Assembly (NCBI GenBank): GCA_947034885.2
Contig: OX344751.2
Coordinates: 7,936,001-8,000,000 of the forward strand
From: Thuidium tamariscinum
Taxonomy: Eukaryota; Streptophyta; Bryopsida; Hypnales; Thuidiaceae
DNA: 64,000 bases
Direction: 5' to 3'
The notes under the pieces are model-generated. The model searched no databases. It was not told where the DNA came from and worked only from the letters and a program-made list of their open reading frames with translations. The position numbers and the translations under genes are program-made. Shown here piece after piece: positions 45,517 through 63,944 of this stretch (within the stretch, counting starts at the first letter, position 1; each line of letters begins with the position of its first letter).

Positions 45517-47061
45517 CTATGACTGCCCGGCCTCTTCTAATACGGATGTTTGCCCTGATGTTCTAATGTGCACACCGCGAACATTACTTGGAACTGCACA
45601 TTCTTCAGCCTGCACCACCGATGGTTGCAAACCGATGAAGTGAGCATCATTTCCCACTTCAAGAACAGTGGAACCAGTTGGTGCAAACAACGGATCACAA
45701 CATCTACTGCGAACATCTGTTTGACACACTACCTTCCAACCATTCTTGTGTATGTCGTCTGAGAAAAACACCTGCTGACAATGTAATGGAAACGCAAATG
45801 AATTTGCATGCACTTTGCCATCCATGCGGTTGAAGTTTGCCAATGTGAAGCCGTACTTGTCTCGCACAATATTTGAAGACCGTAAATCTTGTGACGCTCT
45901 AACCCAGTCACACACTAGAACTGTGGTGCAATGATTTCTATAATCCAATTCCAAAATCTCTTCAATGTATCCCACATAATCGTTTGTCGTCTCCGTAGGC
46001 CTTCCATTCACTGTACCCCACTGTAATTCTCTTGTAAATGATGCCACAACACAAGAATCCCTTGTCACTAAAGCTGCTTCAGAACTTCGGACACGGAAAT
46101 GAATACCGAAGCAATACATCTGACGATGTGAGTTTGCATACCGCTCAGGTGGTTCAGTATACTGTAGAACATCTGATTCTATGTCTTCACCTTCATTATA
46201 AGCTTCTGTTACTTGCTCACGAAACCAGTCAATAAAGGACGGCATTTCCACCAAATGTATTGGATAACGTACAGCTCGAGATCCATGTTGACGTCTACAT
46301 TCCAAGCGAAACAACTCGCGGGCTTCCCATCTCAGTGCCTTCGCTGTGGCGTATTGTCTGCGTACCACATTTCTATGAGCACTTCACCTTAAAATAAGTC
46401 ACCCCCTTCAACTTATGAACACACCGAACCTAATACATAGAACTCTTCATTACCAATTCTATTCAAGGTATAAATAACAAGGCCTAAAACATGGAACTTT
46501 GCTTGAATGTCGCACTTCTCTTCTTTCCATACACTGAACCTTGCAGTCACTGTTCCATCTCTTGAACCATACAGACACTAATACATCCTCATCAATTTAA
46601 AATACTTCTATTAATTCCTCATTTGCAATAACTTACTCCTATTGCATTGGACTGTAACACTATTGTTAGCAGTTTCAACATTGATACAAAACAGCACTTA
46701 CTCACGCCAAGCTTGCAAAGATGCAGCATTCTCGAGAACAAATGCGTGTGCCCAGCTACGCATCTCTTGGGACATTTTCCTCTTCTTTGATTCATGTTGT
46801 GGTAGAATCTCATCATTCATAATGGCATCTTCAGTGGCATCCCAAATGCGTTGACTGGTCCCTCTATACTGCTTCATGTATTCCGTACAAAACCCTAACG
46901 TGTCGTCCACTCTATATCCTTCGGCAATACTTCCTTCTGGATGTGCATACGTGCGGACATAATCTTTCAAGGTCTTCATGTACCTCTCAATTGGATACAT
47001 CCAACGACAATGCACTGGACCACATATGAATAATTGTTGGACAAGATGCACGGGGAGATGT
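45517..47061 (-). pseudogene. CACTA transposase-associated protein, C-terminal part (DUF4218 end and DUF4216)
   Basis: Two exons: 47061-46702 and 46372-45517 (donor GTGA|GTAAGTG, acceptor CATAG|AAATGTGG). The first reads 'HLPVHLVQQLFICGPVHCRW' and 'YPIERYMKTLKDYVR', the core of DUF4218. The second carries DUF4216 ('FFSDDIHKNGWKVV') and an 'LVCDW' segment. It ends at a normal stop about 0.8 kb from the CACTA terminus. The sequence is well preserved, but it is cut off from its N-terminal part at 63751-63944 by the 16.7-kb hAT insertion, so I call it disrupted. Confidence 0.88.
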
Positions 47062-47069
47062 GTCATGAC
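47062..47069. repeat. Left 8-bp target duplication of the giant hAT
   Basis: GTCATGAC, identical to 63751-63758 and itself a palindrome. It encodes part of V-M-T in DUF4218. Confidence 0.93.
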
Positions 47070-47089
47070 CAGGGTTGCTTCCGTCGCGT

Positions 47090-47560
47090 CACGTCCGTCC
47101 GTCAAGATGTCCGTCCGTTGACGTGACGGGGAGCCGAGCGTCCGTCAGGATGAAATTCACGACAGAATCCGCGACAGAGGATGAAAAATCGTGACAGCGG
47201 TCGTGGACGACCTCCGTGGACGGCCTGGAAGGACGTGCTCGGTGGACAGTTCCGATGGACGGTCCTGGCTGACTGGACGGCTTGGATGGACACTCTGGGT
47301 TCTGCGGACGGTCCGGATCCGGTGGACGGTTTTAGGGGACGGCCCCGCTCGCGGGGTATGGACGGCCTCGATGGACAGGACGTCCAGTGGACGGCCTGGA
47401 CGGACGCCTCCAGATCGACGGTCTGGGTACGGTCTACGCTTGGGAAGGACGGCTTGGATTGAGAGGAAGGTTGGACGGCCTGGGTTCGATGGACGGCCTG
47501 GCCGTGCCGTCGACGGTCAGGATGGACGGCCTGGGCTCCGTGGACTGGAACTCTTTATTT
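47090..47560. repeat. Left subterminal GC-rich GACGG repeat array
   Basis: Dense imperfect copies of GGACGGCCTGG, TGGACGGTC and GGACGGCTTGG, CpG-rich against an AT-rich background. hAT elements carry subterminal repeats bound by transposase, and the place and density here suit that role. The chance frames through it are not genes. Confidence 0.8.
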
Positions 47561-47699
47561 GTAAGACTTAAAAGTCTGAGTTCATATTCGCAATCAAAAT
47601 TTTCTCATTAGTCTATGAGGTTTAACCATCTCTCAAAAAATAATTTCCCATGGTTTTGTATTTTAGGCCTTCCATAGTCTAAATATAATGTATATTCTG

Positions 47700-48960
47700 T
47701 ATTTTAAAAAAAGGTTTTGGTGGTTTGAATCAAAAAAAAGGAAATGGTTTGAATGAAAATAACGTTAATGGTTTGGAATTGTGAATAAAAAAAAATGTAA
47801 AACTGGTTTTGAAAAAAAATGTGTTAATTGTTCGAATAAAAAAATTATGGAAATGGTTTGAATAAAAAAAACGTTAATGGTTTGAAATGTTGAATGAAAA
47901 AAAAATATAGAAAGGGTTTGGAAAAAAATGTGTTAATGGCTCGACCAAAAAAATTTGGAAATGGGTTGGGAAAAAAATGTGATTAGGGTTTGACTAAAAG
48001 AAATATGGAAATGGGTTGAAATGTTGGAAAAACAAATTTAGAAATGGTTTGGAGAAAAAATGTGTTAATTGTTTGACTAGAATAAATATGGAAATGGTTT
48101 AGGGTAAAAAAATGGCCAAGTTTTGAGTAAAGAAAAACGGTAATGGTATAGGGTGTTAGAAAGAAAAATATAGAAATGGTTTGGAAAAAAGATGGGTTAA
48201 TGGTTCGACTAAAAAAAATATGGAAATGGTTTGAATCAAAAAAAAAGAAAAAGGAAATGCTTTGAATTAAAAAAAAGTTAATAATTTGAAATGTTGAATA
48301 CAAAAAAATATAGAAACGGTTTGGAAAAAAAATGTGTTCATGTTTCGACTAAAAAATATATGAAAATGCTTCGAATAAAAAAAATATGGAAATGGGTTGA
48401 ATAAAAAAAAAGGCAATGGTTTGAAAGGTTGGAAAAAAACTTATAGAAAGGGTCGTGAAAAAAAATGTGTTAATGGTTTGACTAAAAAAAATATGGAAAT
48501 AAGTTGGAAAGAAAATGTGTTCAGGGTTTGATTAAAAATAATATGGAAATGGTTTGAAAAAAACAACTTTCATGGTTTGAAATGTTGAATAAAAAACATT
48601 TAGAAATGGTTTGGAAAAAAAATGTTAATGCCTTAATGGTTAAGGCTCAAATTGGAAATAGTTTGAATCAATAAAATGGGAATGCTTTGAATAAAAAAGA
48701 ACGTTGATGGTTTGAAATGTGGACGACAAAAAAATATAGAAATGGTTAAAAAAAATGTGTTCATGGTTCGACTAATAAAAATATGGAAATGGGTTCAATC
48801 TAAAATATGGAAAGGGTTTGAATCTAACAAATGGAAATGGGTTAGGGTAAAAAAATGGTTATGGTTTGACATGTGGAAAAAAAAAATGTGGAAAAATGCG
48901 GTGGGAAAAACTTGGGTTAATGGTTTGATTAAAAAAATTCGAAATGGTGGGAATCAAAAA
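47700..48960 (+). repeat. AT-rich degenerate minisatellite (AATGGTTTGAATAAAAAAA type)
   Basis: About 1.25 kb of imperfect units built from GGAAATGGTTTGA, ATGTGTTAATGGTTCGACT and A-runs. Units vary in length, so it is not a strict satellite. An inverted version lies at 54282-54720, so the RING gene lies between oppositely oriented arrays. Confidence 0.85.
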
Positions 48961-49320
48961 CAAAAGCATATATACTTGTGGCATATGTAAAAAATAGAAT
49001 TTTGGCAATTTTTAAAAGTGAACTTACAAAATCTACTTTAAGTGAAAGTATGGCATTGGATTTAAATGAACTTGTTGCACATACATTTCAAGCAAACGTA
49101 TTGAGTATTCTTTTCATTTGTTCATGGTTAAGTTTTCAGTTTAAGTGTTTAACAGACAATACAGTTGTACGAGAAAAATGAAAATGCTTCATTGCCCAAA
49201 AAATGTACTTTTGCAACATGAGCAACAAACGCTCGTAAATGGTCGTCATAGCCAAATACTATTTACAATACTAATATACTATACATCCGTCTAATGGCCT
49301 AACTCATCACCAGAAGGTAT

Positions 49321-51684
49321 TCAACCTTGTTCTGGTTCTACAATGCCTCTGCCTATACTATTTCTCAAAAAATCTTGCAATCCTTCTCTAGATTGCAAAC
49401 TGTTCAACATAGCCACTACGGTCCGATCATATCGATCGTGCAAGTAGGAAGAAATGGTTGACAACATTTGCACCTCATTGAACGTAGTGTCTTCGATGAA
49501 CCTCATTTGTGCCTCATGATCCATGTCTTGGAGTATTCTGATAGGATTTCCACTGGAGTCAAAAACCACATTCTCTGGATGTGGTCGGCGCACGAACTCC
49601 TGTCGGTCCAAGTCCCAATGGCCACCAGCAAGTTGGCCAAAAAATACTCGCCGCCCTAGATCGCCCGCACTAATCAGCTTCTTGCACACCTCCGTAATCT
49701 CCGCATCATCGTTCCACGGAATGTCTTGCACGCTGCGCACGACGAGGTGTCTACTGTCATGGCCCCACTTCCACATCCATATCATGTCATTACCCCAACT
49801 CCCTCTATTCTCATCGCCAGGCAAGTTCTCTTCGTTCAACTCGAAGTGTGGGGGCATGTAATCCTCCAACCCAAATTGGACGTACAACCGCCGGTGCAAA
49901 GGAGCCTTGCATTGTGCGCACCGCTTTCTTGTGACCATGTGCGGAATGAGACATCCGGGGTGGTACATATGTCCACACGTTCCAAGGCAAAATCCACCCT
50001 CGGGTCCAAACGGTTCCATGCAAATCGTGCACGTCGTTCCATCCTTCACAAACTCGGGAACTATGGGCCACAGTAAGGGGGCATTGCCTTCTCTATCCAC
50101 GGGCCCGTATCGATATCTCGCGGTGTTGAATTGGAAGTCTAGATGCGGATGCCCGTCCCAATCAATGCTTGCATTATCGCGATTTTGGGGCAATGTAACT
50201 GGAAACATATCCTCCAGTCGGGCCCACGATGTCAAGCCAAAATAACGTTGGCTACCATCTCTAAATTGTGCAGCTATTCTCCTGACTTCACGCTGCAGTT
50301 GTGCGACCTCGTTCATAGCCAAAGTGCATGCCAATCTCATGTTGCTCATGGCAAGCAACTTTTGCTCCCTCGTAGTTGACGTTTGTTGCAACAATCTATC
50401 CTTCATGGCATTTACAAATGCCAACTCGTCTTGTAGTCCCTCCAAAGCCACTGATACAGTCTCCATGTTGGCCTTGGCCTCATTGCACTCGCCCTCTACA
50501 CGCTCCGCTCGTGCCACAAGGGCATCGTATGCCACGCGCTCAACGCTTATGAACTCTTGGCCCAATGCATCTGTTGATTGGGTTGCCGCATTTGAACTCT
50601 CACCACGAAAATGTGGTGTTGGGAATATACCATGAGGCCGCACCCGGCGCACCGTCAATGGGTCAGCTGGCTCAATTAGACCATATGTGGCCCGCTCCAC
50701 GACCTCATCCAATGGTGGAGTGCCATCCGTGCTTTGGCGACGTTCACGTTCAAGCAAGTCAATGTTACTTGCTAGTAACTTAGCATTCGTTTCCTCCAAA
50801 GCCTTCACTCGTGCGTTGTGGGCTTGTACCTCCATCTTGTGCCTTCGCTCAGCTTCTGCACCATCCTCACGCAGCTTAATCACCAATGCACGTAATGCCT
50901 CTAATTCCCCATTTGCTCCAAATACTTCATTAATTGTCATGGACGGGGGAATTGGGTGAATGGCGAGTGGCATGGGCTCGCTTGGACCGGCAATGGGCGC
51001 GTCCAATTCGGGAGCCACCGGATTTTGTTCGTTGGCGCCTTGAGGTGCATTGTCGACCTCCATGGGGTCCGTGGCCGTCGCTTCGTCCCCTTGTGCCCCA
51101 GCCACTCCTTCGCCCTCCAATTGCACTTCAGGATTTGGTGGAATTCTACGGCTTTTAGCAGGGAAACGGCCGCCCCGTTGTTTTGCCGGATACGTGTTCC
51201 AATCCACGTCCTTGCCCAAAAAAACCTCCGCATACGCCATTTGACACAATGCGAGGGTCCCATCCTTCTTCGAGAGGGTCCCCCAAAGTGCCAATGCCAC
51301 CTCGGTCAACCGCTTCTTGAACGTTGGGTGTACGCAATACTTGATCAATGCAACGCCAGATCGCACTTGCGTCTCATTTCTCTCTCGTGGAAAATGGCGG
51401 TTGATGTGGGCCCAGTCCACGTATCTCTGACATGTGGTGCGGGTCCATGGCTGAAGCGCCTGTTCCCACCCGTGTCCGGCCAAAACTTCTCCAGTGTTGA
51501 AAGTCGCCCAGTCTACAATGCTCCTGTTCCCACGACGCCTCCTGTGTGGATGTTCACCTTCATGGGTTACCATCTCTTGGTTTTCTACCACTGGGGGATG
51601 ATTTCCAGCAATTACCACCTCCTGGTTCTCTGCCATGGGGGGGTTCTCTACATGTAGTACCATCTCTCCAGGGTTTAAGGCCAT
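49321..51684 (-). CDS. RING-H2 coiled-coil protein carried by the hAT element (787 aa)
   Basis: Start ATG at 51684, 5 nt after an acceptor-like TGTGCAG, so a 5' leader intron is likely; the upstream in-frame start is a GTG within that intron. Stop TGA at 49321. Order: a short Glu/Pro leader; an unknown Trp-rich domain of about 110 aa ('GHGWEQALQPWTRTTCQRY'); an acidic linker; two coiled-coil stretches ('LREDGAEAERRHKMEVQAH', 'YDALVARAERVEGECNEAK'); then RING-H2 at about 50032-49905. The RING ligands are C-x2-C (CTIC), C-x-H, H-x2-C (TCGHMYHPGC) and C-x2-C (CAQC), the arrangement of E3 ubiquitin ligases. A Trp-rich C-terminal domain follows. It may act as an E3 ligase. The frame is intact over 2.4 kb, which implies recent selection. 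I do not recognise the N-terminal domain. Confidence 0.85.
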   Translation of the reverse strand: MALNPGEMVLHVENPPMAENQEVVIAGNHPPVVENQEMVTHEGEHPHRRRRGNRSIVDWATFNTGEVLAGHGWEQALQPWTRTTCQRYVDWAHINRHFPRERNETQVRSGVALIKYCVHPTFKKRLTEVALALWGTLSKKDGTLALCQMAYAEVFLGKDVDWNTYPAKQRGGRFPAKSRRIPPNPEVQLEGEGVAGAQGDEATATDPMEVDNAPQGANEQNPVAPELDAPIAGPSEPMPLAIHPIPPSMTINEVFGANGELEALRALVIKLREDGAEAERRHKMEVQAHNARVKALEETNAKLLASNIDLLERERRQSTDGTPPLDEVVERATYGLIEPADPLTVRRVRPHGIFPTPHFRGESSNAATQSTDALGQEFISVERVAYDALVARAERVEGECNEAKANMETVSVALEGLQDELAFVNAMKDRLLQQTSTTREQKLLAMSNMRLACTLAMNEVAQLQREVRRIAAQFRDGSQRYFGLTSWARLEDMFPVTLPQNRDNASIDWDGHPHLDFQFNTARYRYGPVDREGNAPLLWPIVPEFVKDGTTCTICMEPFGPEGGFCLGTCGHMYHPGCLIPHMVTRKRCAQCKAPLHRRLYVQFGLEDYMPPHFELNEENLPGDENRGSWGNDMIWMWKWGHDSRHLVVRSVQDIPWNDDAEITEVCKKLISAGDLGRRVFFGQLAGGHWDLDRQEFVRRPHPENVVFDSSGNPIRILQDMDHEAQMRFIEDTTFNEVQMLSTISSYLHDRYDRTVVAMLNSLQSREGLQDFLRNSIGRGIVEPEQG

Positions 51685-51884
51685 AGTACCTGCACACAAT
51701 GCCACAACACGGTATGTATGTACAGATGACTATGCTCTGCCTCTTGTTGCATGAGGGCAACTGGAATGTGGCAAAGCAATAGCCAAATGCTTGACTTCCT
51801 CCCGAATTGCAATGCAAAGCTTTTTTCAAGCTAGGACAGAGCAACTCAAGAGAGAAAGCAAGGTTAATTGTGGCTGAATTTGGG

Positions 51885-51891
51885 ATTTATA
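51885..51891 (-). promoter_or_regulatory. TATA box of the RING-H2 gene
   Basis: TATAAAT on the minus strand, about 200 bp before the ATG and directly next to the GC array that starts near 51930. The spacing matches that of the kinase-like and transposase genes. Confidence 0.6.
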
Positions 51892-51929
51892 CTCCCCATT
51901 ACCAAGCCTCGTTAGGAGTGTTAATTTGT

Positions 51930-52349
51930 GTCTAATCACATCGCCATGCACCACCTGGAGCCGTTGATGCGGACGGCCATCGACGGCTGGGGCGTCCAGA
52001 GAGCGTCGACGGAGGTTCGGGAGGCCGTCGACAGCTTCGGGATGACGTCACAGAGGCCGTCCACAGGTCCGGCGCCGTCAACGAGTTCGAAAACACTCAT
52101 GAGTTCGAAAATCCATAATTACTCCGCCGAATTGCAAATTCGATGGCCAAAAATGGCTCTTCGTGACGACTTGCCCGTGGTCTTGGACGACCACTGTCCC
52201 GCTGTGGACAGCCTGCCCGGACAGGTCGATGCTTCGGCCCGCAGCCAAATTCGTTGCGGACGGCCTGCCTAGGTCCTGGACGGGCCCGTGTTGCTGGACG
52301 GTTTTCTGGACGCCCTCCGTTCCCGTGACGGCCTGCCCAGGTCCTCGAC
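51930..52349. repeat. GC-rich GACGG array upstream of the RING-H2 gene
   Basis: Contains GCGGACGGCCATCGACGG, CTGGACGGTTTTCTGGACG and similar words, of the same type as the subterminal arrays. It is split from its continuation (52596-52680) by a MITE. The block around GTGACGGCCTGCCCAGGTCC is nearly repeated on the other side. Confidence 0.78.
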
Positions 52350-52586
52350 GGCCAGGGAGGACTGACCCCTCTATTGCCCCTCCGGAGGGTAAATGTAAAA
52401 AATTCCCCCCTAATTTGTGCCGATTAAATTTTAGATTTCAACACGTCCCCCAACTAAATCGAGGTCTCTGATTCCAAATAAGAATTCAGAATTTGCAAAA
52501 AAGAATTTGTGTGAAAAATAAAAGAAATTCCAGGGTTTTCTGCAAGGGTAAAAAAGGGGCAATAGAGGGGTTAGTCCTCCCTGGCC
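52350..52586. mobile_element. MULE-type MITE inside the GC array, 237 bp
   Basis: The inverted ends match over about 32 bp with one mismatch, starting GGCCAGGGAGGACT and reading on through CCCCTCTATTGCCCC. GTCCTCGAC flanks it on both sides (52341-52349 and 52587-52595), a 9-bp duplication. It is noncoding and younger than the hAT array it splits. Confidence 0.82.
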
Positions 52587-52595
52587 GTCCTCGAC

Positions 52596-52795
52596 AGGCC
52601 CGTCTTCCTGGACGGTTTTAGGAACGCCCTCCGTCCCCGTGACAGCCTGCCCAGGTCCTGGACGGGCCCAATAGGTGGGCCCAATATATACTGAATTTCA
52701 ATTAGGCAGGTGGAATCCAATTAGACAGCCAGGATCCAATTACGCAATTGGTATTCATTTAGGCAGTTGAGATGCAATAAGCTGTAAGACAACAG
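52596..52795. repeat. GC array continuation and a short 22-bp-type tandem repeat
   Basis: The GACGG array continues to about 52680. After it, four imperfect copies of a CAATTAGGCAGGTGGAATC-like unit of about 22 bp run from about 52700 to 52790. Confidence 0.55.
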
Positions 52796-52799
52796 AATT

Positions 52800-54281
52800 T
52801 TAATGTGGGTGAACTGGTGAAGATTGCCAATGTAGTACCTGTATACTGTAATTTTTATTGGAGCTCAGTGAGTTAACATTCATAGCTTGCATTTCTTTTA
52901 AAAAAAATTTGGGATTCATTCATGGTTGTGACAAGTGTGTGACTCATTCAGATCTTGTATTTCTTTTTAAATTTTTTTGGGATTCATGATTGTGACAAGT
53001 GTGTTAGCCATGTATGCATGGTAGGAGGCAAAGATTGCACTTATTTAAATTAAGAGTTGATTTGCCTTTTTCGTGTATGTCTTTAGATGAAAATATTTTT
53101 AGTTTTTTTTTCAGTCAAGGAGAAATAGATGAGGAATCTAATACAAGTTGTTTCATATTTTTTGGAAGAAAAATTGAATTAATTATTAATTTTCAAACAC
53201 AATTTGTCATAGGACCCTATTTGTGATCAGTAAGCCTTGAAAATCTATACATGCACAGTTTCTAAAAGAATCTGGTTTGGTGAATAAACTAGTAATGCAA
53301 CATGTAAAAAATGGTTTGAAATGGTTTCTAAATGTTTCCCTTTCAAAAACTGAAATGAATTCTTCAATTAATCATTATTTCAAAACAATTTCACATTTGA
53401 AAGAAGGTAGTTTAACAACCATTTTTTATTTTGAATAAAATTAGTAGACACCTATAAGTACACTTAGTTACGATTGAATCCATTGTAACTCTAAAACCAT
53501 CCATTCATATAGTGAAAATCAAATCTTAGCATGCTTCAATATAATCCACAATTAGTTTCCTCACAATGAGCTTTCCAATTCAGATTTCAGACCCTCCTAT
53601 AGTCCTATTAAGCAGATAAAAAAGCCTGCATAGTTTATTAACCTCCGTGTGAGCTTCCTACCATAATAGTTGATTTGAGAGCAAGAGGTCCTTGAACTTC
53701 TTCATTTTAGATGTTAGAATGGATTTGCAGACTTACTGATACTTGTGTTTTTAAACACAATCGGCTTATTAAATTCCCTAAGTTTTCCTTATTATATAAA
53801 TGAATGTGAATATGCTCTTGTGCCTTTAAATTGGTTTTAAATATTGCATTAATTAGGATTGTATACTATAGTTTAATTTCTCTATTGTGTGCTTTGTTTT
53901 CTTATAAATGGTGAAATATAAATAGTTGTAGCTTTGATTTTTGATTTTCAAACTCTTTAGTGGCATATAGATAGCATATGCTGTGCGTTTCACCATGTTC
54001 TTAGTTCATCAAAATCCTTGAAGCTCACATGTTTCCTTGTATACAATGTTTTTGATCTTCTCAATATTTTGTAATTATGAAATGTAGAAAAAAAATAGGG
54101 TGTTCAAAAATAGTCCTTCAAAGAATTTACAAAAGAAAATAGGGTACTCTAAAATACACTCCGGTAGCTTTATTTCTACTAATAGGGAGGGAAAAAAACA
54201 TGAGAAGGACATAAATACCCCCCCATTAAATACCCCATTATCGCACGTGGTTACCAAAAGATAAAGGGGGTGAACCCCCGA
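52800..54281. other. AT-rich spacer within the hAT, no gene seen
   Basis: A 70-codon frame at 53014-53226 has no family features or splice context. Nothing else could be supported. Confidence 0.45.
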
Positions 54282-54720
54282 GTCTGTTATTCAAACCATT
54301 CCCATTTTTTTAATTCAAACCTTTCCCATTTTTTTAATTCAAACCATTCCCATTTTTTTTATTCGAACCATTTCCACATTTTTTTCCAAACCGAATCATT
54401 TCCATATTTTTTTAGTCGATCCATTAACCCATTTTTTGGTCCAAATCCCTTCTATATATTTTTGCCCAACACCCGAAACCATTAACATTTTGCTTTATTC
54501 ACACCACTTCCATTTTGGGGATTCAAACCTTTTCCCTATTTTTTTTAATTGAACCATTAACACATTTTTTTCCAACCCATTTCCACATTTTTTTTATTCG
54601 AACAGGGCTCGACAATTTCTTTCCAAACCCTTTCTATATTTTTTTGGGGTAACTTTTTTAACCCTTTGACGTGTTTTTTTGGTTCAAACCATTAACACAC
54701 TTGCGGAATTCTAACTCTTT
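54282..54720 (-). repeat. AT-rich minisatellite, inverted relative to 47700-48960
   Basis: Tandem imperfect units of TTCAAACCATTCCCATTTTT, the reverse complement of the AATGGTTTGAA array on the left. Confidence 0.82.
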
Positions 54721-55368
54721 CTTCTAGGGTTTATCATACACTTCGGCAAAGAGAGGATTAGAGCGGTTTAGGGTTCCGCAGAAGAGTCTGAATTCTGAAA
54801 ATTGGTTGGTGCCCACTAACGGAGTCTTGCTTGCCAATGCCCCCGTCCTAAACTCCTAATTAGTGCTCGCCATTCACTTATACTTTCATAACTCATAGTT
54901 TCATAACTCATAAGTAGAGTACATGACTACATGACTAGAATATTATGCAATATAGTAATATACTAATATGTACATGTAGTACTAATCTAATTTCCTAAAA
55001 AATACATGCCTAGTCGGATGGCTCCCGAATTTAAAATTGAGAAGTTTAAATCCCTACATATCCGTAGGGCAACTTCTAAAATTTAGGGTCCATCACTTCA
55101 GCCATTCTCGATATGAGATGAAGCACTGGAAGGCAATGTAAAATTTTAGCCGTGTACATTATACACTACCCACCAACAAGTTTAGGATCATCCAATTCTG
55201 CCATTGAAACGAATTTTGCATAATATAATCAAGCATACCAAATGTGGATTTCACATAAGTCAAATTCAGTATTTGGTGAATTGTTTCATTCAAAACTCAT
55301 GGTTTAGCATGATAATTGATTATAAAACATTGGTGATGAATTAGCATTAATTTGCAAAGAGGAGATAT

Positions 55369-55545
55369 GTAGGAAACATCCATATGCACATCTTTCATAC
55401 CAAAAAACATCCTAGATTCCTAGTAAGTTACAACAATATAATTGGGTTGAAGAATTCAATTAGGCATTTTATATGACCCCATTTTGTAAAATAGATGTAT
55501 GTACGCTTGAATTAGATTTAGGCAAAGTCATTGTACGGAAATGAT
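55369..55545. mobile_element. Partial copy of the foldback MITE
   Basis: It begins TATGTAGGAAACATCCATAT and keeps the words GCACATCTTTCATA, TTTTGTAAAATAGAT and TTAGGCAAAGTCATTGTA in the order of the copy at 2153-2500. The right arm is missing or decayed. Confidence 0.7.
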
Positions 55546-55920
55546 TTAAGTTCCTCAAGGAGTTATAGTGTGACCATCAAATAGCAAATGCTAATTAAGC
55601 TGGATTAAATTATTAAAATTAGCTCCTATTTCCTAAATTTACGGGGGAGAATGAAATTAGATGGAAAGGGAGGAAGTAGAGCTTTTTGACGACACAACTG
55701 AGAACGGATACGCATCAACCGAAGAAGTATGTGTTTAGACTAGAACCAATAAGTTTAATCATTTCATGTTATTTCTTTTAATTACTTCAAAATTTGCAAA
55801 ATTAGATTGACGCTAGGAAAATAAAGATCAATTACCGAATACAAATTATAATGCACTTCTTAAGTTATTAAATTACTAAACTAGACATTTTACCCTCATT
55901 TACGCAAAAGTAAAAAGGAA

Positions 55921-55965
55921 CTTAAACCCTAAACCCTAAACCCTAAATCCTAAATCCTAAAACCT
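55921..55965 (+). repeat. Short telomere-like CCCTAAA array (telo-boxes)
   Basis: Three perfect AACCCTA units followed by variant AATCCTA units, about 870 bp upstream of the kinase-like ATG. A single AAACCCTAAA also lies upstream of the transposase gene at about 63535. Telo-boxes are common plant promoter elements. Confidence 0.65.
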
Positions 55966-56149
55966 TCGGTTGGGCAAGGGCTTTAGGCTGGGTTTTTGAC
56001 CTTCTCAAAATTCAGTGTCAGCCCTTAGATGGGCGGTTTCTGGCCTGTTACCTTATTACCTTGTAGAGGAATTTCAGTTGCACGAGGCTTGCCATTAAGT
56101 CTTCGCTGGCATCTTCACCGCCGTGTGCTTCCCCGACGATCCCCTTAAT

Positions 56150-56590
56150 GGTTCAGAATTCCCGGGACGCCCTGTGGGGTCGCGTGGACGGCCTCGTTCC
56201 ACGACGGACCCCCGAATTCCCAAGACAGCTTGTGCGTCCTGTCGACGGTCTCGCAGTTCCTCGACGGTTTCCTGGACGGCTTCGAAATTCCCGGGACGGA
56301 TGGGTGCGTCCCGTCGACGGCCTCATCGTCCTCGACATTCCCCTCGACGGCTTCCCAATTCTGAGGACGGCGAGTGCGTCCCCTCGACGGTCTCGCAGTT
56401 CCTCGACGGTCCCCACGACGGCTTCGAAATTCCCGGGACGGATGGGTGCGTCCCGTCGACGGCCTCATCGTCCTCGACATTCCCCTCGACGGCTTCAGCG
56501 CGTCCCCTCGACGGTCTCGGAGTTCCCGACACCCCTCGACGGCTTTCGAGTTCCTTGGACGGATCGGCCGTCCATGTGACGGCTCGCCAA
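56150..56590. repeat. GC-rich GACGG array with about 141-bp tandem units, upstream of the kinase-like gene
   Basis: Dense GACGGCTTC, GTCGACGGTC and CCTCGACGGT words. A unit starting near 56233 (TGCGTCC..TCGACGGTCTCGCAGTT) recurs near 56374, about 141 bp on, and a partial third copy starts near 56499. It is the same motif class as the subterminal arrays. Its several open frames are low-complexity artefacts. Confidence 0.82.
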
Positions 56591-56594
56591 CGAC

Positions 56595-56601
56595 TATATA
56601 A
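56595..56601 (+). promoter_or_regulatory. TATA box of the kinase-like gene
   Basis: TATATAA directly after the GC array, 196 bp before the ATG at 56797. A short 5' leader intron (GT at 56744, AG at 56795) ends 1 nt before the ATG. Confidence 0.7.
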
Positions 56602-56796
56602 GGTGGGCCAGGTCCCCCACTCTGCACAAGTCTCTCCTGCTCTGACGGTGCTCTCTTGCCTTGGATTGGTTGCAGTCCTTGCTTGGGAGCGCGGGTGCTT
56701 GCGAGGAGGCTCGGCTGAGGAAGGGGGGATAGTTTTCACATTTGTGAGTACTGAACCCTAATTCCTTGGTTTTACCATCGCATATTTTTTTTCAGA

Positions 56797-58458
56797 ATGG
56801 ACGGGCGAGGTGCGTCGAAGCGCAAGGTTGATGAGTGGTTTTCAGGCATCGGAGATCTTGTTGGTGAGCAGTCTCCAGAATCCATTGACTGCGTATCAGA
56901 GGCAGTATTGGCCGGAGAAGGGGTCGGTGGTGCGGTTGGAGGAGAATCTTCGGGGGCCAAGAAAAAAAAGAGCAGGCGGAGGCACAAGGCTATGAATACA
57001 GACGACTGGCCAAGGAAGGCTGCGACCAGGAAAGTGCAGGAAGTGGCATTGGATTTTTTGGAGCAATATACGATTGCTCAATTGAATATGACCTACGTCT
57101 CGCGTGGATTGCAAGGGGTGGAGACAATTAAAAAAAAATTCACCCACATGTTTTGGACAACAATGGGTGAGGATGAGTGGCTTGAAGATCGCACAAAGGA
57201 ACACTTCCGTTGTTGGCTTGACGAACAAGTGCAAACTTGTGTTTTCAACATCGCCCAAGTCGCCGCATCGGTAAAGGGCTTCAAACGAGATGTAGCGCTG
57301 AAGCAACAAGCATTGCATTTGTTGCACAAAAAGGTGTATTGGTGGCATGACGCAATGCGAGCGCTGTCTTCCAGCAATATCCGCTCTGCCCCATGGTTTC
57401 AGCAGAGCCAAAGCTTGTCCTTAGGCCAAGCGGGTGCGGGAGGAGTGGTATTTCTTGAACGAGGAGTGGTGGTGGTTCCATTGTCAGGCCACAACAAATA
57501 AGGGGGGCACGGGAGGGTGCATAAAGTGAGCCTCCAAAATTCAAGGCACATTCCCCCCATGATGGAATTGGCGGGCAAGACAGCCCTATATGTGGATCAA
57601 TTGAAGAAGTCGCGGGAGAAGTTGTCCATCGAGGCTTTGGTTTGTCCATGTAATCATCCAGGGGTCATAAAAATTTTTGCTATAAATGACATGACCATGG
57701 AGTGTTATTCTCAATGGTGGAATGGAGGAACATTGGGAGCCATGTTCGCATTGGACCAGAAAAACCGAGATTATGCTGAGATCGGGGAGCTTGCCTACCA
57801 TGCAACTCCACAGACGATGCAAGAAGCCAAAAGACTCTTGGCTTATCGTAGAAACCGCACCGAGCTTGCATGGGCGTTAATTTGCATCGTGGATGCAGTG
57901 CAACAATCTTCGGTGCTCCACAACGACATCACGCCAGAAAACATCATGTTGCATTTTCCGAATGATGATGGGCGAACAGTGTGGATTGGGCTATGTGATT
58001 GGGGAATGGCTAGTCGTATCAATGAAGAAACCCATTCTTTGTACCAGTTTCAATGTGCAAGCCAAATGCGGGCTACACGTCAGAAACGTTGGTGGGTGGC
58101 CCCTGAATTGATGTATGTTCCTGGAGAGGCGGGCACTTCGGTATCCCCCACTCGTGCAGATGGGGCACCGTGTGTTAGTATACATACAGACGGATATGCT
58201 GTTGGGAAGCTTGCGGAGAAGATATGGAAGAAAGACCGCGAAAATACGCAAATGCTTCCCGACTATACAGCGTTTGGTACATTTCAAGCCACATTGGGCG
58301 AATTGTGCAAAGAGGACCCACTACAACGAAGCACGGTAACGTACGCCATGGGACGAATTAGTGGCGCCCCCTTATTTTGGACTCCACCCGTGGATTGCTA
58401 CCGCGAGGCCCGCAAGGAGCAAGCACTTCTACAAGAACAAGCAAGGAATGAAGATTAG
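56797..58458 (+). CDS. Protein-kinase-like protein carried by the hAT element
   Basis: The frame is open from ATG 56797 to the stop at 58456-58458 except for one TAA at 57499-57501. A 69-nt GT-AG intron at 57434-57502 would remove it, keep the frame and create 'LGQAGGHGRVHKV', a good glycine-rich loop; the product is then 530 aa. N-terminal domain (about residues 1-210): basic 'KKKKSRRRHK' nuclear-signal-like motif, then unknown helical sequence with many Trp. Kinase part: Lys in 'ELAGK', Glu in 'SIEALV' then 'NHPGVIKIF', catalytic 'HNDITPENIM' (HRD with Arg replaced by Asn), 'CDWG' for DFG, 'WWVAPELM' for APE, and Asp in 'TDGYAVGKL'. Key catalytic residues are kept, so activity is possible. 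It is the only plus-strand gene of the element. Without splicing it would be a broken gene. Confidence 0.8.
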
Positions 58459-58670
58459 AGAATAGTATTTTAGTGGCAATGTAATCGTAGACGTACCTTA
58501 GTACTTGCTTTTACCACAGTATAGTCCACGAACTTTGCGTCACTGAATTTTGTACTAACTCCTTTTTGAAATAAATATATGTAAATATTTTTGTTCCATT
58601 CGAGTATGATTCCGGTGAGTGGATTTGTGAGTAGTTCTGTCCCTTCGTAAATTTTGGACTTAATGCCATG

Positions 58671-59597
58671 TTAGCTCCTAAAGGACCACGGCCGTTTTTC
58701 AACCCAAAACCACTCAAAACTGCCATTTTTGTTCCATTCATCTATGAAAAACAAAAAAACTAAATTTTTAGAATCTAACCATAGGATCTTGAACTTTACT
58801 TAACTAAGATGATGTGGTGAAAATTTCATGAAGTTTGACCGTATAGATAGGAAGATATGAGCATTCAAAGTTGGAAAACAAAGTTTTCTTAAACACTAGT
58901 TTGCAACTTCAAATGACTTTGTCCTCCATTTATGTAATCTTTTTGCACTACAGACCTTGAATTAAAATTTTTTTATTGAGAAATTGAGCTAAGAGCTTAG
59001 GAAAAAAAATTCACAAAATAAAGACTTTTTGTCATTCTTTAAAAAATTGTCAAGTAGATGTAGGTCCAAGATTGAAAGAAAAACTAAATTGCAAATATCT
59101 CATAGTTGGAATTGAAACACAATAATCCCAATGGTGAGATTGTTCTAGAAAACAAAATCAACCTTGTCCAACAATTTTTTTTTTTAAATTGTGGAAATTG
59201 CATTCACAAATGAATCCTAGAAGTTATTTTTTCAAGAAGCTGCTTAGATTGCCCGAAAAACAAGATTGTTCATAACTTTCACATTACTAATCCAAATGGA
59301 ATGAATCAAAGCTTTACTTGTAGACAAAAATATAATCTATAAGAAAAAAAAATTATTTTTTTAATTTTGAAGTTTCTGTAGATTTTTTTTCTGCCCGGCA
59401 ACATAAAAATAATGTTTATGATGGCATAACTTTTGCTCCCGGTCACCAATTGAAAAAAAATGAATATTTCCACGGAGCTAATCAGTTTTTTTATCTTATG
59501 TGAAAATTTCAATAAAATTCATTAAAAATTGAAGTCACAAGTACTTGCCCTAATTCTTAAAGTTCCCCGAGGGGACTCTTGGTCCTTTAGGGGTTAA
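58671..59597. mobile_element. TIR element of the TTAACCCCTAAA family inside the hAT, 927 bp
   Basis: The left end TTAGCTCCTAAAGGACCACG and the right end, inverse of TTAACCCCTAAAGGACCAAG, match with few differences. The interior is AT-rich and noncoding. It is related to 24509-25135. No clear target duplication. Confidence 0.62.
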
Positions 59598-59978
59598 TTC
59601 AGTACTTTCAATCATTTTCTCCATATTCCAGATTACATTTGTTTTCTTGTACATGGCAAAATCCATAATGATCTCAAAATATCCAAGCATGTAGGTAACC
59701 AGCTTCAAAGAATGAATCCAAATTTAAGAGTATAGAACACATGGCAAACGACAAAGCAAATATTTCCATTTCTTGGGACAAATATCCATAAATGGATCCG
59801 TTGTTGCGTTGTAGAATTTGTGACATGTGAAGATAAAAAATTTCTACCCATGCGCCCTACATGAGCACAGGAAGCATGTGTAGTATTTATAATTAATGCC
59901 GAATTTCACATGCAAGGTATTCAGCCTTACACAATATTACATAAGATGACATAGAGACATTTTTTTCCCTAGATGCTC

Positions 59979-62900
59979 TCAACGTCTTGCACGTGTACGA
60001 TTAAGAGCCATGCTCCTTGCAGCAGCCTCTCGCGTGGTTGCTTGATTGTCTTGAGGTGCAGGTGGAGGACCTCTACGAGTCCCTCTATAATCACTATCTC
60101 CCGGAACTTCACCATCTTCACCTATACTAGGACCCATGGATTCATCATCATGATTGGACGTTGCCCTACCGACTTCGCTTGGTGAGTTGTCAGGGCTGTC
60201 TGAGCCTTCACCTACTATAGAAGCCAATCTGCGGATTGTTCGCCCTCCTACTCCATCTCCAGCGGTATCCACATTGGGCCCCGTTGGTCCAGGGAGAAGA
60301 CCTTCGCGGAGAAATGGTATACTCGCCGCTTCTTCCCTTCTTAGCCTTCTACGTGTTCTTCTACTCACTCGTTCATTGGTAGGGCCTTCTTCACGTGGCC
60401 GCGGGCGTCGATTAGTAGTGCGTGTAGGCGGTGCAACGGGTTGTTCTGAGGATGGAGGTGCATTCCTTCGCTCGGTCATATTTAGAGTTGGGAAGAGACC
60501 GGCCAATCGTGTACCGACTGATGGAGTTTCTTGGTTGGGGCGGACTCTAGAAGATGAAGGCCGTGCTGAAATTTGGACGGGTGGATCATCCAAGCTAGGC
60601 GCTTGTGGTCGCACGCCGATCGTGTCTCGACGCAATGTGCGAAAGTCTATCTCGACACCAATGGGGGATCTGTGGCTACGAGTGTTTCGCGCCACTGGGG
60701 GATCTGTGGCAACGACCTCATCTTCGCCTTGTCTTTCTACCACAACGACATGTTCATGTCTCCGGGTACGCATTTCTTCTTCAATCGGCCCTATAACCGG
60801 CGAAGGTGGGGCTTCAACCCCTTCGTTTTGATTTCCACCACTTGACCCCGCAATCGATGTACGTGGCATCCATGACGGACTGCCATCATTTCCCCCGTTG
60901 TCATTTCCATCATTATCCGCGCCATCAAAGTCAAATACGGACTCGTCAATTAGGGGACCCCTTTCTTGTCTTTCATCCAAAGGCCGAAATGGTGGATCAT
61001 CATCGCCATTGGAACTGTCATCTGAGTCATCGTTGTTAGCGTCTGACATAACCGAACCACGATCCAAGCCATCTGATTCGGTTGTCATGGAATCTTCGGA
61101 CAACATGTTCTCAGTGTACCATCGTGCTGCATCCGCCGCACCCCTTTCCCTGAGAGTCCTCGAATTGGTATAAATGTAAACCAATTCCTCCGCGCGCTCA
61201 GATGTCAATCTGTTGCGAGACTTGCTGTGGACAAATGAATACATGCTCCAATTGCGTTCGCATGATGATGCGGAACATACTTGTGCGAGGATCCTTCTTG
61301 CAATAGGTGCAAGCGTATGAGCACCGGCTCCGAGAAGATCCCACCATTCATGCGGCTCCAAATTCAAAGTATTCACATCGGGAAGTCCAGCGAACATGCC
61401 TCGGCGGTCTCGAAAGGATTGGTACTCAAACAAAGCGGCTGCATATCCCAACCCTCCAACTGCCAATTTGCGTAGTACTCTAAGAATGGCCTCCTTTGCC
61501 TCGTTATCGTCTATTAGTATAATTTCATCAAGGAAGAATGGATTGAGCAAGGCAGCTGCGTAGTGCAAATCGGTCTTCATCAAATCCCATCGTTCGTAAA
61601 ACGCGTATTCAGCACGGTCCGCATAATTTGCCTCCAATGAAAATGGTCGATTCCTCAAAGCCAAAACATGCTTTTCTAGCTTCTTCATCACGATCCATGC
61701 TTTGCCCATGACCGGATGTTTTCCATCAAACTCTCGAAGAGCCACCAACACAGGCTCTACCATATGCACAAAGTTGAGACACCTCCTCCAGAACTCGTCC
61801 TTTCGAACCCTACGTCGAACCTTTTCTGCCTTATTGTGTATTGCAGCGTTCGAGGACCTCACATATTCGTTCCACTGCGGATCATGGACTGTAGATTCCA
61901 CGGCTTCCTTGACCTCGGCCAAACGCTCGATCATGAGGAACATGGTCGCAAAACGTGTCTCAATGGGATTCTTCAACATGAGGTTAGGAGAATGTCGTCG
62001 GAAAATGGCGAGTGGCATGTGATGCGTGCGAATGAATTTCACGATTGATTTTGCTTTCTTCACCATTTTGACCACCCAAAGTTGCTTGCCCCAATCTTCA
62101 AGTAGAAGGTCAAGTGCATGCGCGGAACAACCTTGGAAATATAGGTGAGGGAATTCGCGAGTAATTTGAGTACCAGCCAAACGCATGTTTGGCGCATTGT
62201 CCGTACAAACTTGCACCACATTCTGTCCCCCCACCGCGTCAATGTAATCGATCATGCGATTAGCCACATAAACAGCGTCTTTGCTTTCGCCTGTAGTGTC
62301 CACCGATCCCAAAAATACTTCTCCACTCGTGCACGACAACATTACATTGATCAATGGCCGATGGCTGACATTGTCCCATCCGTCAGAACATATAGTGACA
62401 CCGTACTTGTGGATAGGCCCCCTTGTCTTCTCCGCTACCAGTGCAGCCACTTCCTCCTTTGTTGATGTCATGAGCTTCGTACGTATGGCATTGTAAGGTG
62501 GAGGTTTGTAAAGAACTCTGGACTCGGAGGTTGATTTCACGGCATCCACAAAAGCGGGGTGTCTCACCACATTGAATGGGATATTTGCTTCGTAGAAAAA
62601 CTTTGCCCACTTCTTGTCTAGTACTTGCTTTTTGGATGTGTCCATCCCTTCTTGTACGGATAATTGCCTCAGCGGTCGACTATGGGTCGAAGAAGGGATA
62701 GGCGCCTCTGATGATCGAACTTGAGAATTTTGGCCCAAAGTATTTCCTCCCCCTCCACTAATTGAGATTGAAGCATTGGGTAATTCTTGATCACGTACCA
62801 CCCTCGTTGGATTCGATGACGGTGATGTCACTTCCACATCATGTTCCTCTTCGTCTTCGGAGACCGTAGGAACATTCCCCCCACAATTGAAAAACATAGC

Positions 62901-63086
62901 CTTCACTGCTGCACTGGCCTTGTTGCACATTCTCACTCCGGGGAGGGTGTCATTTCGTCTATAACCCAAGTGGAAAAGCAAGTGATCCTTGCGGTAACTA
63001 ATCTTCGTTTTGCAGAACTTGCATTCCACTTTCCCATCCTCTTGTAGCCTGTACCAGGGTTCCCATTGTGTCCTCCCCCCTCCCAT
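59979..63086 (-). CDS. hAT-family transposase with long C-terminal tail (1035 aa)
   Basis: ATG at 63086 ('MGGGRTQWEPWYRLQEDGK'), 27 nt after the acceptor of a 58-nt leader intron (63170-63113). The frame further upstream runs only through that intron from a GTG. Domains: BED-type zinc finger (CKFC then H-x3-H in 'HLLFH'); DUF659-like region; RNase-H-like core with Asp in 'CSDGWDNVSH', Asp in 'VCTDNAPNM' and the hAT 'CSAHALDLLL' motif; hAT dimerisation region ('HEWWDLL') holding the Glu of 'SASSCERNWS'. All three DDE positions look intact. After the domain ends ('AEELVYIYTNS') comes a tail of nearly 400 residues, acidic first and then Arg-rich and disordered; usual hAT transposases stop near the dimerisation domain. 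It lies next to the right terminus and is the likely mobiliser. Confidence 0.92.
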   Translation of the reverse strand: MGGGRTQWEPWYRLQEDGKVECKFCKTKISYRKDHLLFHLGYRRNDTLPGVRMCNKASAAVKAMFFNCGGNVPTVSEDEEEHDVEVTSPSSNPTRVVRDQELPNASISISGGGGNTLGQNSQVRSSEAPIPSSTHSRPLRQLSVQEGMDTSKKQVLDKKWAKFFYEANIPFNVVRHPAFVDAVKSTSESRVLYKPPPYNAIRTKLMTSTKEEVAALVAEKTRGPIHKYGVTICSDGWDNVSHRPLINVMLSCTSGEVFLGSVDTTGESKDAVYVANRMIDYIDAVGGQNVVQVCTDNAPNMRLAGTQITREFPHLYFQGCSAHALDLLLEDWGKQLWVVKMVKKAKSIVKFIRTHHMPLAIFRRHSPNLMLKNPIETRFATMFLMIERLAEVKEAVESTVHDPQWNEYVRSSNAAIHNKAEKVRRRVRKDEFWRRCLNFVHMVEPVLVALREFDGKHPVMGKAWIVMKKLEKHVLALRNRPFSLEANYADRAEYAFYERWDLMKTDLHYAAALLNPFFLDEIILIDDNEAKEAILRVLRKLAVGGLGYAAALFEYQSFRDRRGMFAGLPDVNTLNLEPHEWWDLLGAGAHTLAPIARRILAQVCSASSCERNWSMYSFVHSKSRNRLTSERAEELVYIYTNSRTLRERGAADAARWYTENMLSEDSMTTESDGLDRGSVMSDANNDDSDDSSNGDDDPPFRPLDERQERGPLIDESVFDFDGADNDGNDNGGNDGSPSWMPRTSIAGSSGGNQNEGVEAPPSPVIGPIEEEMRTRRHEHVVVVERQGEDEVVATDPPVARNTRSHRSPIGVEIDFRTLRRDTIGVRPQAPSLDDPPVQISARPSSSRVRPNQETPSVGTRLAGLFPTLNMTERRNAPPSSEQPVAPPTRTTNRRPRPREEGPTNERVSRRTRRRLRREEAASIPFLREGLLPGPTGPNVDTAGDGVGGRTIRRLASIVGEGSDSPDNSPSEVGRATSNHDDESMGPSIGEDGEVPGDSDYRGTRRGPPPAPQDNQATTREAAARSMALNRTRARR

Positions 63087-63300
63087 TGCTCCCACTGGTT
63101 CTTCACTTGAAACTGCACAAACAAAACAGGTTAGTATTCTGTTTGGATGTGATGTGGAAATAACACTTACTGCTTTCACAGCAAGTGTTCCTCCCACACA
63201 CTCTTCTTGGACTTCACTCTAGTGCAATGGCTGTGTGCCAACCAGGTCATAAGAGCAAAGATCAGCAAGGAAAAGTGACCTTCAAATACACGGCTTGTGC

Positions 63301-63306
63301 TATATA
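63301..63306 (-). promoter_or_regulatory. TATA box of the hAT transposase gene
   Basis: TATATA on the minus strand, about 215 bp before the ATG and next to the right GC array. Confidence 0.65.
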
Positions 63307-63314
63307 CTGTGAAC

Positions 63315-63690
63315 GCCTGGCAGCAGTCGTCCAGTCGACGGCCTGGCCGTTGGCGCACTGTGGACAGCCGCGGACGGGACGTCGTGGCCGTCCCTGCAGA
63401 CGCTCTGGCCGTCCAGCGGACGTCCCACTGTCCAGACGACGGCCTGGCCGTCCCCGCAGCGTGGACGGACTCTGGACGCCGTGACCGTCCGCTGAACAGA
63501 AAACTGTCGAGGCGACGGCCTGGCCGTCACGCCTAAACCCTAAAGCCGCGGACGCTCTGTCCGTCCACGCGACGGCCAGTCGTCGAGGCGGCCGACAGGC
63601 CGTCTGCGCGCTGTCGACGGACTTCATCCGCGCTGTCGACGACGCCGTCAGCATTCGGGACGGCCTCTAACGCGTCCTGCCGCGTCACGA
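63315..63690. repeat. Right subterminal GC-rich GACGG repeat array
   Basis: GTCGACGGCCTGGCCGT, GACGACGGCCTGGCCGTC and TGGACGGACTCTGGACG words in both orientations, ending about 60 bp from the right TIR. It is both the subterminal region and the immediate upstream region of the transposase gene. Confidence 0.82.
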
Positions 63691-63750
63691 CTGACGCGTC
63701 ATGACATCCCGACGGGAAAAGCCCACGTCACGTCAGGATAGACAACCCTG

Positions 63751-63758
63751 GTCATGAC
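63751..63758. repeat. Right 8-bp target duplication of the giant hAT
   Basis: GTCATGAC, identical to 47062-47069. Confidence 0.93.
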
Positions 63759-63944
63759 ATTCAAAAAGGTGGGCGGAAACTCCTTCTCGAACATGCAAGT
63801 TGCCATTACAACGTCATTCATCATGTCTTCCTCATCGCTCATACATATCTGTTTTGCACAAATCCGTTGGAATATGCGACTCATCTTGATGATTGCTGAA
63901 CGAACTTCCTCATCTAGTACATTACGAATAGCTACAGGAAGTAC
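63751..63944 (-). pseudogene. CACTA transposase-associated protein, N-terminal part of DUF4218
   Basis: After an acceptor-like GTGGCAG, the frame reads 'VLPVAIRNVLDEEVRSAI' and 'SRIFQRICAKQI', the start of DUF4218, and runs to 'FLNVMT', where the hAT begins. The rest of the domain is at 47061-46702. Upstream exons lie outside the window. Confidence 0.82.

Follow-up and report, generated by a model that had tools for sequence, protein, structure and literature searches.

hAT elements are textbook single-gene transposons. The window (the whole 64,000-nt stretch of DNA analysed here) contains a much longer insertion with hAT-like ends and three genes, and the question that it raises is whether this is one transposon, and whether the two genes that accompany the transposase belong to it.

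The element proper extends from position 47070 to 63750 of the window (16,681 bp) and is flanked on both sides by perfect 8-bp duplications, GTCATGAC. Its parts, together with the adjoining frames of the element in which it is inserted, are listed below in window coordinates; E1, E2 and E3 are three further full copies, described later.

45520..46383, minus strand: DUF4216 of a host CACTA-like element (30.1 bits, just under the cut-off of 30.6)
46701..47069, minus strand: DUF4218 frame (Pfam profile), split by the insertion and resuming at 63759
47062..47069, no strand: left copy of the target-site duplication, 8 bp, GTCATGAC, as read in the sequence
47070..47077, plus strand: left terminal inverted repeat, CAGGGTTG, with an identical end in E1–E3
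47219..47532, plus strand: left subterminal array with six GACGGCCT
49324..51729, minus strand: frame of the RING-H2 protein, 802 codons from stop to stop, with a predicted helical N-terminal part, coiled coils, RING and C-terminal domain
52022..52334, no strand: array upstream of the RING gene with four GACGGCCT
56187..56465, plus strand: array upstream of the kinase gene with three GACGGCCT
56797..58458, plus strand: kinase gene from its likely ATG, a single frame in E2 and E3, with a stop at 57499-57501 in the window copy
59979..63218, minus strand: frame of the hAT transposase (DUF659, Dimer_Tnp_hAT), 1079 codons from stop to stop, with the likely start at about codon 45
63337..63666, plus strand: right subterminal array, upstream of the transposase gene, with five GACGGCCT
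63743..63750, plus strand: right terminal inverted repeat, CAACCCTG
63751..63758, no strand: right copy of the target-site duplication, 8 bp, GTCATGAC

When the flanks are joined in a script a single open frame runs across the site, matching DUF4218 with 117.5 bits (profile positions 1-108), compared with 89.6 bits (positions 36-108) for the interrupted frame alone. The initial annotation had proposed one precise insertion whose removal restores the DUF4218 frame, and this is borne out. The duplication and the inverted repeats CAGGGTTG and CAACCCTG are likewise located where it had placed them, the perfection of the repeats being limited to 8 bp. The duplicated sequence GTCATGAC is a palindrome by chance; those of E1–E3 are non-palindromic. 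To the left of the element the minus strand contains further frames of 762, 298 (overlapping) and 329 codons (window 13915-16297 and 19399-20385). Within the element are about six TAAACCC units, a plant-type telomere repeat (window 55923-55965), and two AT-rich arrays with a unit of ∼24 bp resembling TGGTTTGAATAAAAAAAATATGGAAA. The arrays are located at 47706-48990 and 54265-54702, are inverted relative to each other, and flank the RING half of the element. The TAAACCC units and the CACTA-type neighbours with DUF4216 and DUF4218 suggest that the host is a plant or a close relative of plants.

The transposase matches DUF659 with 124 bits and the hAT dimerisation domain (PF05699) with 38.1 bits (cut-off 21.4) in Pfam, and on comparison with solved structures gives a weak match to the Hermes transposase (E = 0.00049). 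For each protein query the homologue search scored only the ∼8000 candidates sharing most words with it, among which were 65 transposase, 39 kinase and 4 RING homologues, the last with 42-51% identity. D279, D340 and E654 are invariant in 17 aligned rows (the window frame and 16 of the 65 homologues), and we take these to be the catalytic triad D, D, E of this transposase. No BED finger is found in Pfam at E = 0.1; inspection by eye shows a C-x2-C ... H-x3-H pattern. Most of the listed genomic matches to the transposase contain a single TGA, which in E1–E3, judging from the lengths of the frames, would precede the likely start (near codon 45) and be part of the leader. A terminal inverted repeat starting CAGGG is typical of the hAT superfamily. 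The element has such a terminus in CAGGGTTG, in addition to the dimerisation domain, the 8-bp duplication and the catalytic residues, and it is on these features that its membership of the superfamily is based.

The second gene encodes a protein with a C3H2C3 RING, in which all eight zinc ligands are invariant across six aligned sequences. The Pfam score for RING is 26.9 bits in the window frame, just below the cut-off of 27.3; that of a distant relative, the contig L045 discussed below, is 36.9 bits and above it. Compared with solved structures, the RING stretch matches RING finger protein 24 (E = 9.7e-05). The protein is probably a ubiquitin ligase. A low-confidence structural model (mean pLDDT 45.8) suggests coiled coils before the RING and a conserved domain after it.

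The third gene encodes a kinase-like protein. A likely intron acceptor was read by eye directly before its ATG. In an alignment of 38 of the 39 homologues, from which the 39th and the element's own kinase were left out, K260 is invariant and H374-N375-D376, N381 and D400 are nearly so (≥90%). The kinase motifs are HND for HRD and DWG for DFG, and inspection of the element's own sequence by eye gives AGK, HND and DWG. A search of the PDB with the kinase gave no match at 0.001. One of the relatives, P0088 (34% identity), has 73 member sequences, the longest contig being 717 kb. The kinase frame is open over 567 codons in E2 and E3, and E1 has two stops at places other than that of the window copy. 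The initial annotation had described three genes with an intact transposase. Transposase, RING-H2 and kinase genes are indeed all present, but in the window copy the kinase frame is interrupted by its stop at 57499-57501.

The number of related copies was estimated within the assembly that contains the window (363.2 Mb in 19 contigs), to which all the family counts apply. Using the left 300 bp as query there were 40 matches among the best 40 of 312 candidates. The RING frame found a match in all 56 of the best places (of 1325 candidates) with 97-98% identity, the window's own excepted. The best 77 of 635 candidates were scored with the kinase, with 98-100% identity, and the transposase gave 44 matches from the best 43 of 773 candidates (97-99% identity, again excepting the window's own), one copy being split into two matches. 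The best-scoring matches of the four queries were positioned along one shared map of the element, allowing deviations of 1,500 bp, and after merging represent at least 100 distinct element sites. Two or more parts with the order, orientation and spacing expected of the element are present at 71 of the 100 merged sites, and a single listed part at the other 29. In at least 19 elements the RING, kinase and transposase are all among the listed matches, correctly ordered and oriented. The window copy is outside these 19 because its kinase is not among the 77 best matches.

The right terminal 29-mer, allowing up to three mismatches, occurs 357 times in the assembly (171 forward and 186 reverse), compared with 0 occurrences of the reversed control pattern. 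These counts, together with the separate duplications of E1–E3, exclude a chance origin of the inverted repeats and duplication. Among the first 100 right ends listed, all of them exact, 63 are located 15.8-17.3 kb from a listed element part and 37 are not. E1, E2 and E3 are 16,713, 16,872 and 16,978 bp in length, flanked by GTGAATGG, GTCCAGTG and TCGATGGT respectively. They are colinear with the window copy, to which they are 98.8-98.9% identical, and 99.05-99.45% identical to each other. All three genes are present in each of the four copies read whole, some with stops. The second copy with the same genes between such ends that the initial annotation had looked to for confirmation is thus found in E1–E3, and also in the 19 or more elements noted above, which may include these three. 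Perfect 8-bp duplications flank 12 of 14 large copies, four read whole and ten by their ends. Of these ten, eight have perfect duplications, one has a right flank that ends after three agreeing bases, and one has none.

The RING gene was compared in 30 copies, the best-scoring of the 56. With the window copy excluded, the mean difference among the remaining 29 is 0.81% (range 0.21-1.58%), and among all 30 the largest mean distance is that of the window copy (1.36%, the next being 1.34%). The genomic copies accordingly point to a family that is large and young, known from recent insertions and moving as a single unit with 8-bp duplications. Stop-free frames were found for the RING in 43 of the best 56 copies (with stops in 13) and for the kinase in 48 of the best 77 (with stops in 29), shares that are taken from the best-scoring copies so that the true ones may be lower. 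RING variants that recur in at least two copies comprise 18 nonsynonymous, 17 synonymous and 1 stop, where 23.8, 10.6 and 1.6 are expected, so that the ratio of nonsynonymous to synonymous changes is 0.47 of expectation, on small numbers. The singletons (117 nonsynonymous, 62 synonymous and 3 stop, with 118.4, 54.8 and 8.8 expected) have a ratio 0.87 of neutral. These variant counts weakly suggest constraint on the RING gene within the burst. C to T or G to A changes make up 174 of the 218 RING variants in the 30 copies (L009–L038), a pattern of the kind expected from methylated cytosine.

Four arrays within the element share one motif. GACGGCCT was selected, after the counts had been seen, as the top over-represented 8-mer with at least half G+C in the window element. 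It or its complement occurs 18 times in the element, all 18 inside the four arrays, with none in the other 14,127 bp of the element and none in window positions 1-47069. The number expected per array is 0.02-0.04, with a maximum of 1 in 500 runs of a first-order chain simulated from each array stretch; as the motif was chosen post hoc these figures are not a preset test, and it is the clustering in four places that is the observation. E1–E3 contain 19, 21 and 20 occurrences, in the same four places. The 7-base core GACGGCC occurs 29 times, once within the RING frame (element position 4004).

The same motif is found in small relatives of the element. Four of the 37 listed right ends that lack a listed partner were sampled. 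One belongs to a further large copy (98.8% identical over the 7,008 bp read) and three to small elements, L068, L069 and L071, with lengths of 872, 872 and 767 bp, each with its own perfect duplication. They carry 14, 15 and 11 GACGGCCT respectively. These small non-autonomous elements have ends of ∼140 bp, with 93-96% identity to those of the large element, and a repeat-rich middle. As small and large elements have both ends and GACGGCCT in common, the comparison supports the identification of GACGGCCT as a putative binding site used in trans.

The age of the association between the genes can be judged from a distant relative. L045 is a contig of 6,291 bp that is filed under a cyanobacterial metagenome-assembled genome, in which it is presumably a eukaryotic contaminant. 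It begins inside a transposase, the C-terminal part of which is 51.6% identical to that of the window over 246 residues, and 48% identical to the relative P0017 over 677. After the transposase, on the same strand, follows a RING protein of 875 codons (30.7% identity over 362 residues, E = 7e-39). The window element, on its minus strand, has its transposase and RING genes in the same order, with the kinase located between the two on the opposite strand. Within its 6.3 kb L045 contains neither the kinase nor an array of GACGGCCT. The end of the contig after the RING gene (L045:5396-6291) comprises a different G+C-rich tandem repeat, similar to CCCGTTCCCTCCCC, which is possibly L045's own subterminal array. 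The presence of the same transposase–RING pair in so distant a contig indicates an old pairing. A hint of the same exists for the kinase, in that transposase and kinase relatives have equally long longest contigs in two cases, P0008/P0073 (6480) and P0017/P0089 (15563). A Pack-type element would carry host gene fragments that differ between copies; here the same three genes are present in the four whole copies, and the RING pairing recurs in L045.

Two other loci, L046 and L047, have short matches to the transposase only; the queries with the RING and kinase gave no match in them. Viral contigs scanned with alignments of the kinase, RING and transposase contained no relatives, nor did genome contigs in a first scan with the kinase. 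A fused RING-DUF659 protein of Scenedesmus (P0055) was rejected as a relative. Its RING shares an N-terminal stretch with an IQ motif, and the name of the record is RNF32; the protein is more likely a host gene or a fusion of gene models.

VANDAL21/VANC (a MULE) and TnpA of En/Spm provide known examples of a protein made by the element that binds to short repeats, at the ends as well as at the promoter. They belong to other superfamilies, and for the present family binding of the motif is only inferred. A DNA-binding protein encoded by the element, most likely the transposase, would bind GACGGCCT to assemble the ends, and the same protein would control all three promoters. Binding at both ends and promoters might then couple element dosage to expression. 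The RING protein and kinase could act by modification of the transposase or of host proteins, the likeliest effect being to raise transposition or weaken silencing, and would be accessory genes of the transposon rather than host genes captured by chance. We consider it probable that this is an autonomous-type cut-and-paste hAT family of ∼16.7-17.3 kb that has its own three genes, for the transposase, the RING-H2 protein and the kinase, and that the explanation holds as a whole, including the roles suggested for motif binding and the accessory proteins.

The family shares with the Ac/Tam3-like hATs that have a DUF659 transposase the Dimer_Tnp_hAT and DUF659 domains, the CAGGG-type inverted repeat, the 8-bp duplication, subterminal repeats and small non-autonomous relatives. 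It differs from them in its length of ∼17 kb rather than a few kb (Ac is 4.6 kb, according to an abstract), in the two conserved extra genes and in having motif arrays ahead of each gene. A precedent for hATs with an accessory gene is provided by fungal hAT7 families, which encode a TET/JBP dioxygenase thought to serve the element (Kojima 2025, PMC12730594). Those families are fungal and have 7-bp duplications and a different accessory enzyme, and the abstract and two sections of that paper mention neither RING nor kinase. Large elements with accessory frames are also the subject of a 2019 review of giant eukaryotic transposons (PMC6431247), which considers elements >20 kb; its text contains no occurrence of hAT. 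The initial annotation knew of no described hAT with this cargo. Nothing in the open PMC literature matches listed contradicts this, no RING- or kinase-bearing hAT having been recognised among them.

Other origins of the two genes have to be weighed against this explanation. They could be passengers, two host genes that were captured by an ancestral hAT and are carried by all copies through recent amplification. With RING copies so little diverged a recent burst alone would keep the frames open, and the RING singletons look nearly neutral. However, the RING gene of L045 adjoins a transposase of the same kind at ∼30% (RING) and 50% (transposase) identity, which is far older than the burst, and the arrays before the genes use the motif of the termini. 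Such co-occurrence in a divergent family is met once for the RING, that of the kinase resting on the equal longest contigs. We regard the capture of passengers as unlikely.

RING proteins and kinases both act in plant signalling, and the two genes might therefore benefit the plant itself, perhaps under stress or in immunity, in the manner of giant elements that carry cargo. Yet most of the homologues, 4 for the RING protein and 39 for the kinase, are metagenome proteins without a name, and none is a named plant protein; the copies are many, and the GACGGCCT motif is common to the transposase side. Moreover, the fungal transposon-borne TET genes are argued, in the parts of the paper cited, to favour the element over the host (Kojima 2025, PMC12730594). 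A benefit to the host is thus very unlikely as the explanation. It is more improbable still that the whole is a composite, in which a hAT and other elements became nested by chance and were then copied as one. The AT-rich arrays around the RING half (at 47.7-49.0 kb and, inverted, at 54.3-54.7 kb) could be seen in this way, but the four GACGGCCT arrays link both halves to the ends, and the adjacency of transposase and RING recurs in L045.

Returning to the three-gene hAT family, a wider reading can be put forward tentatively, as possible rather than probable. The family may belong to an old and distinct clade of large hATs with three co-inherited genes, under the post-translational control of their own ubiquitin ligase and kinase, with a regulon based upon a single motif, through which one DNA-binding protein of the element would serve the ends and all promoters alike, and with a function of RING protein and kinase in counter-silencing or tuning of the transposase. 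If this reading is true, the RING protein and kinase would be a protein-level counterpart of transposon-encoded demethylation. As a natural test bed the family offers ends in the hundreds, small (0.8-kb) relatives by which the requirements in cis are narrowed down, and many copies with open frames. A high-copy, 17-kb hAT unit of three genes, with repeats matched between its ends and the stretches before its genes, poses the question of why a DNA transposon should carry a kinase and a RING protein.
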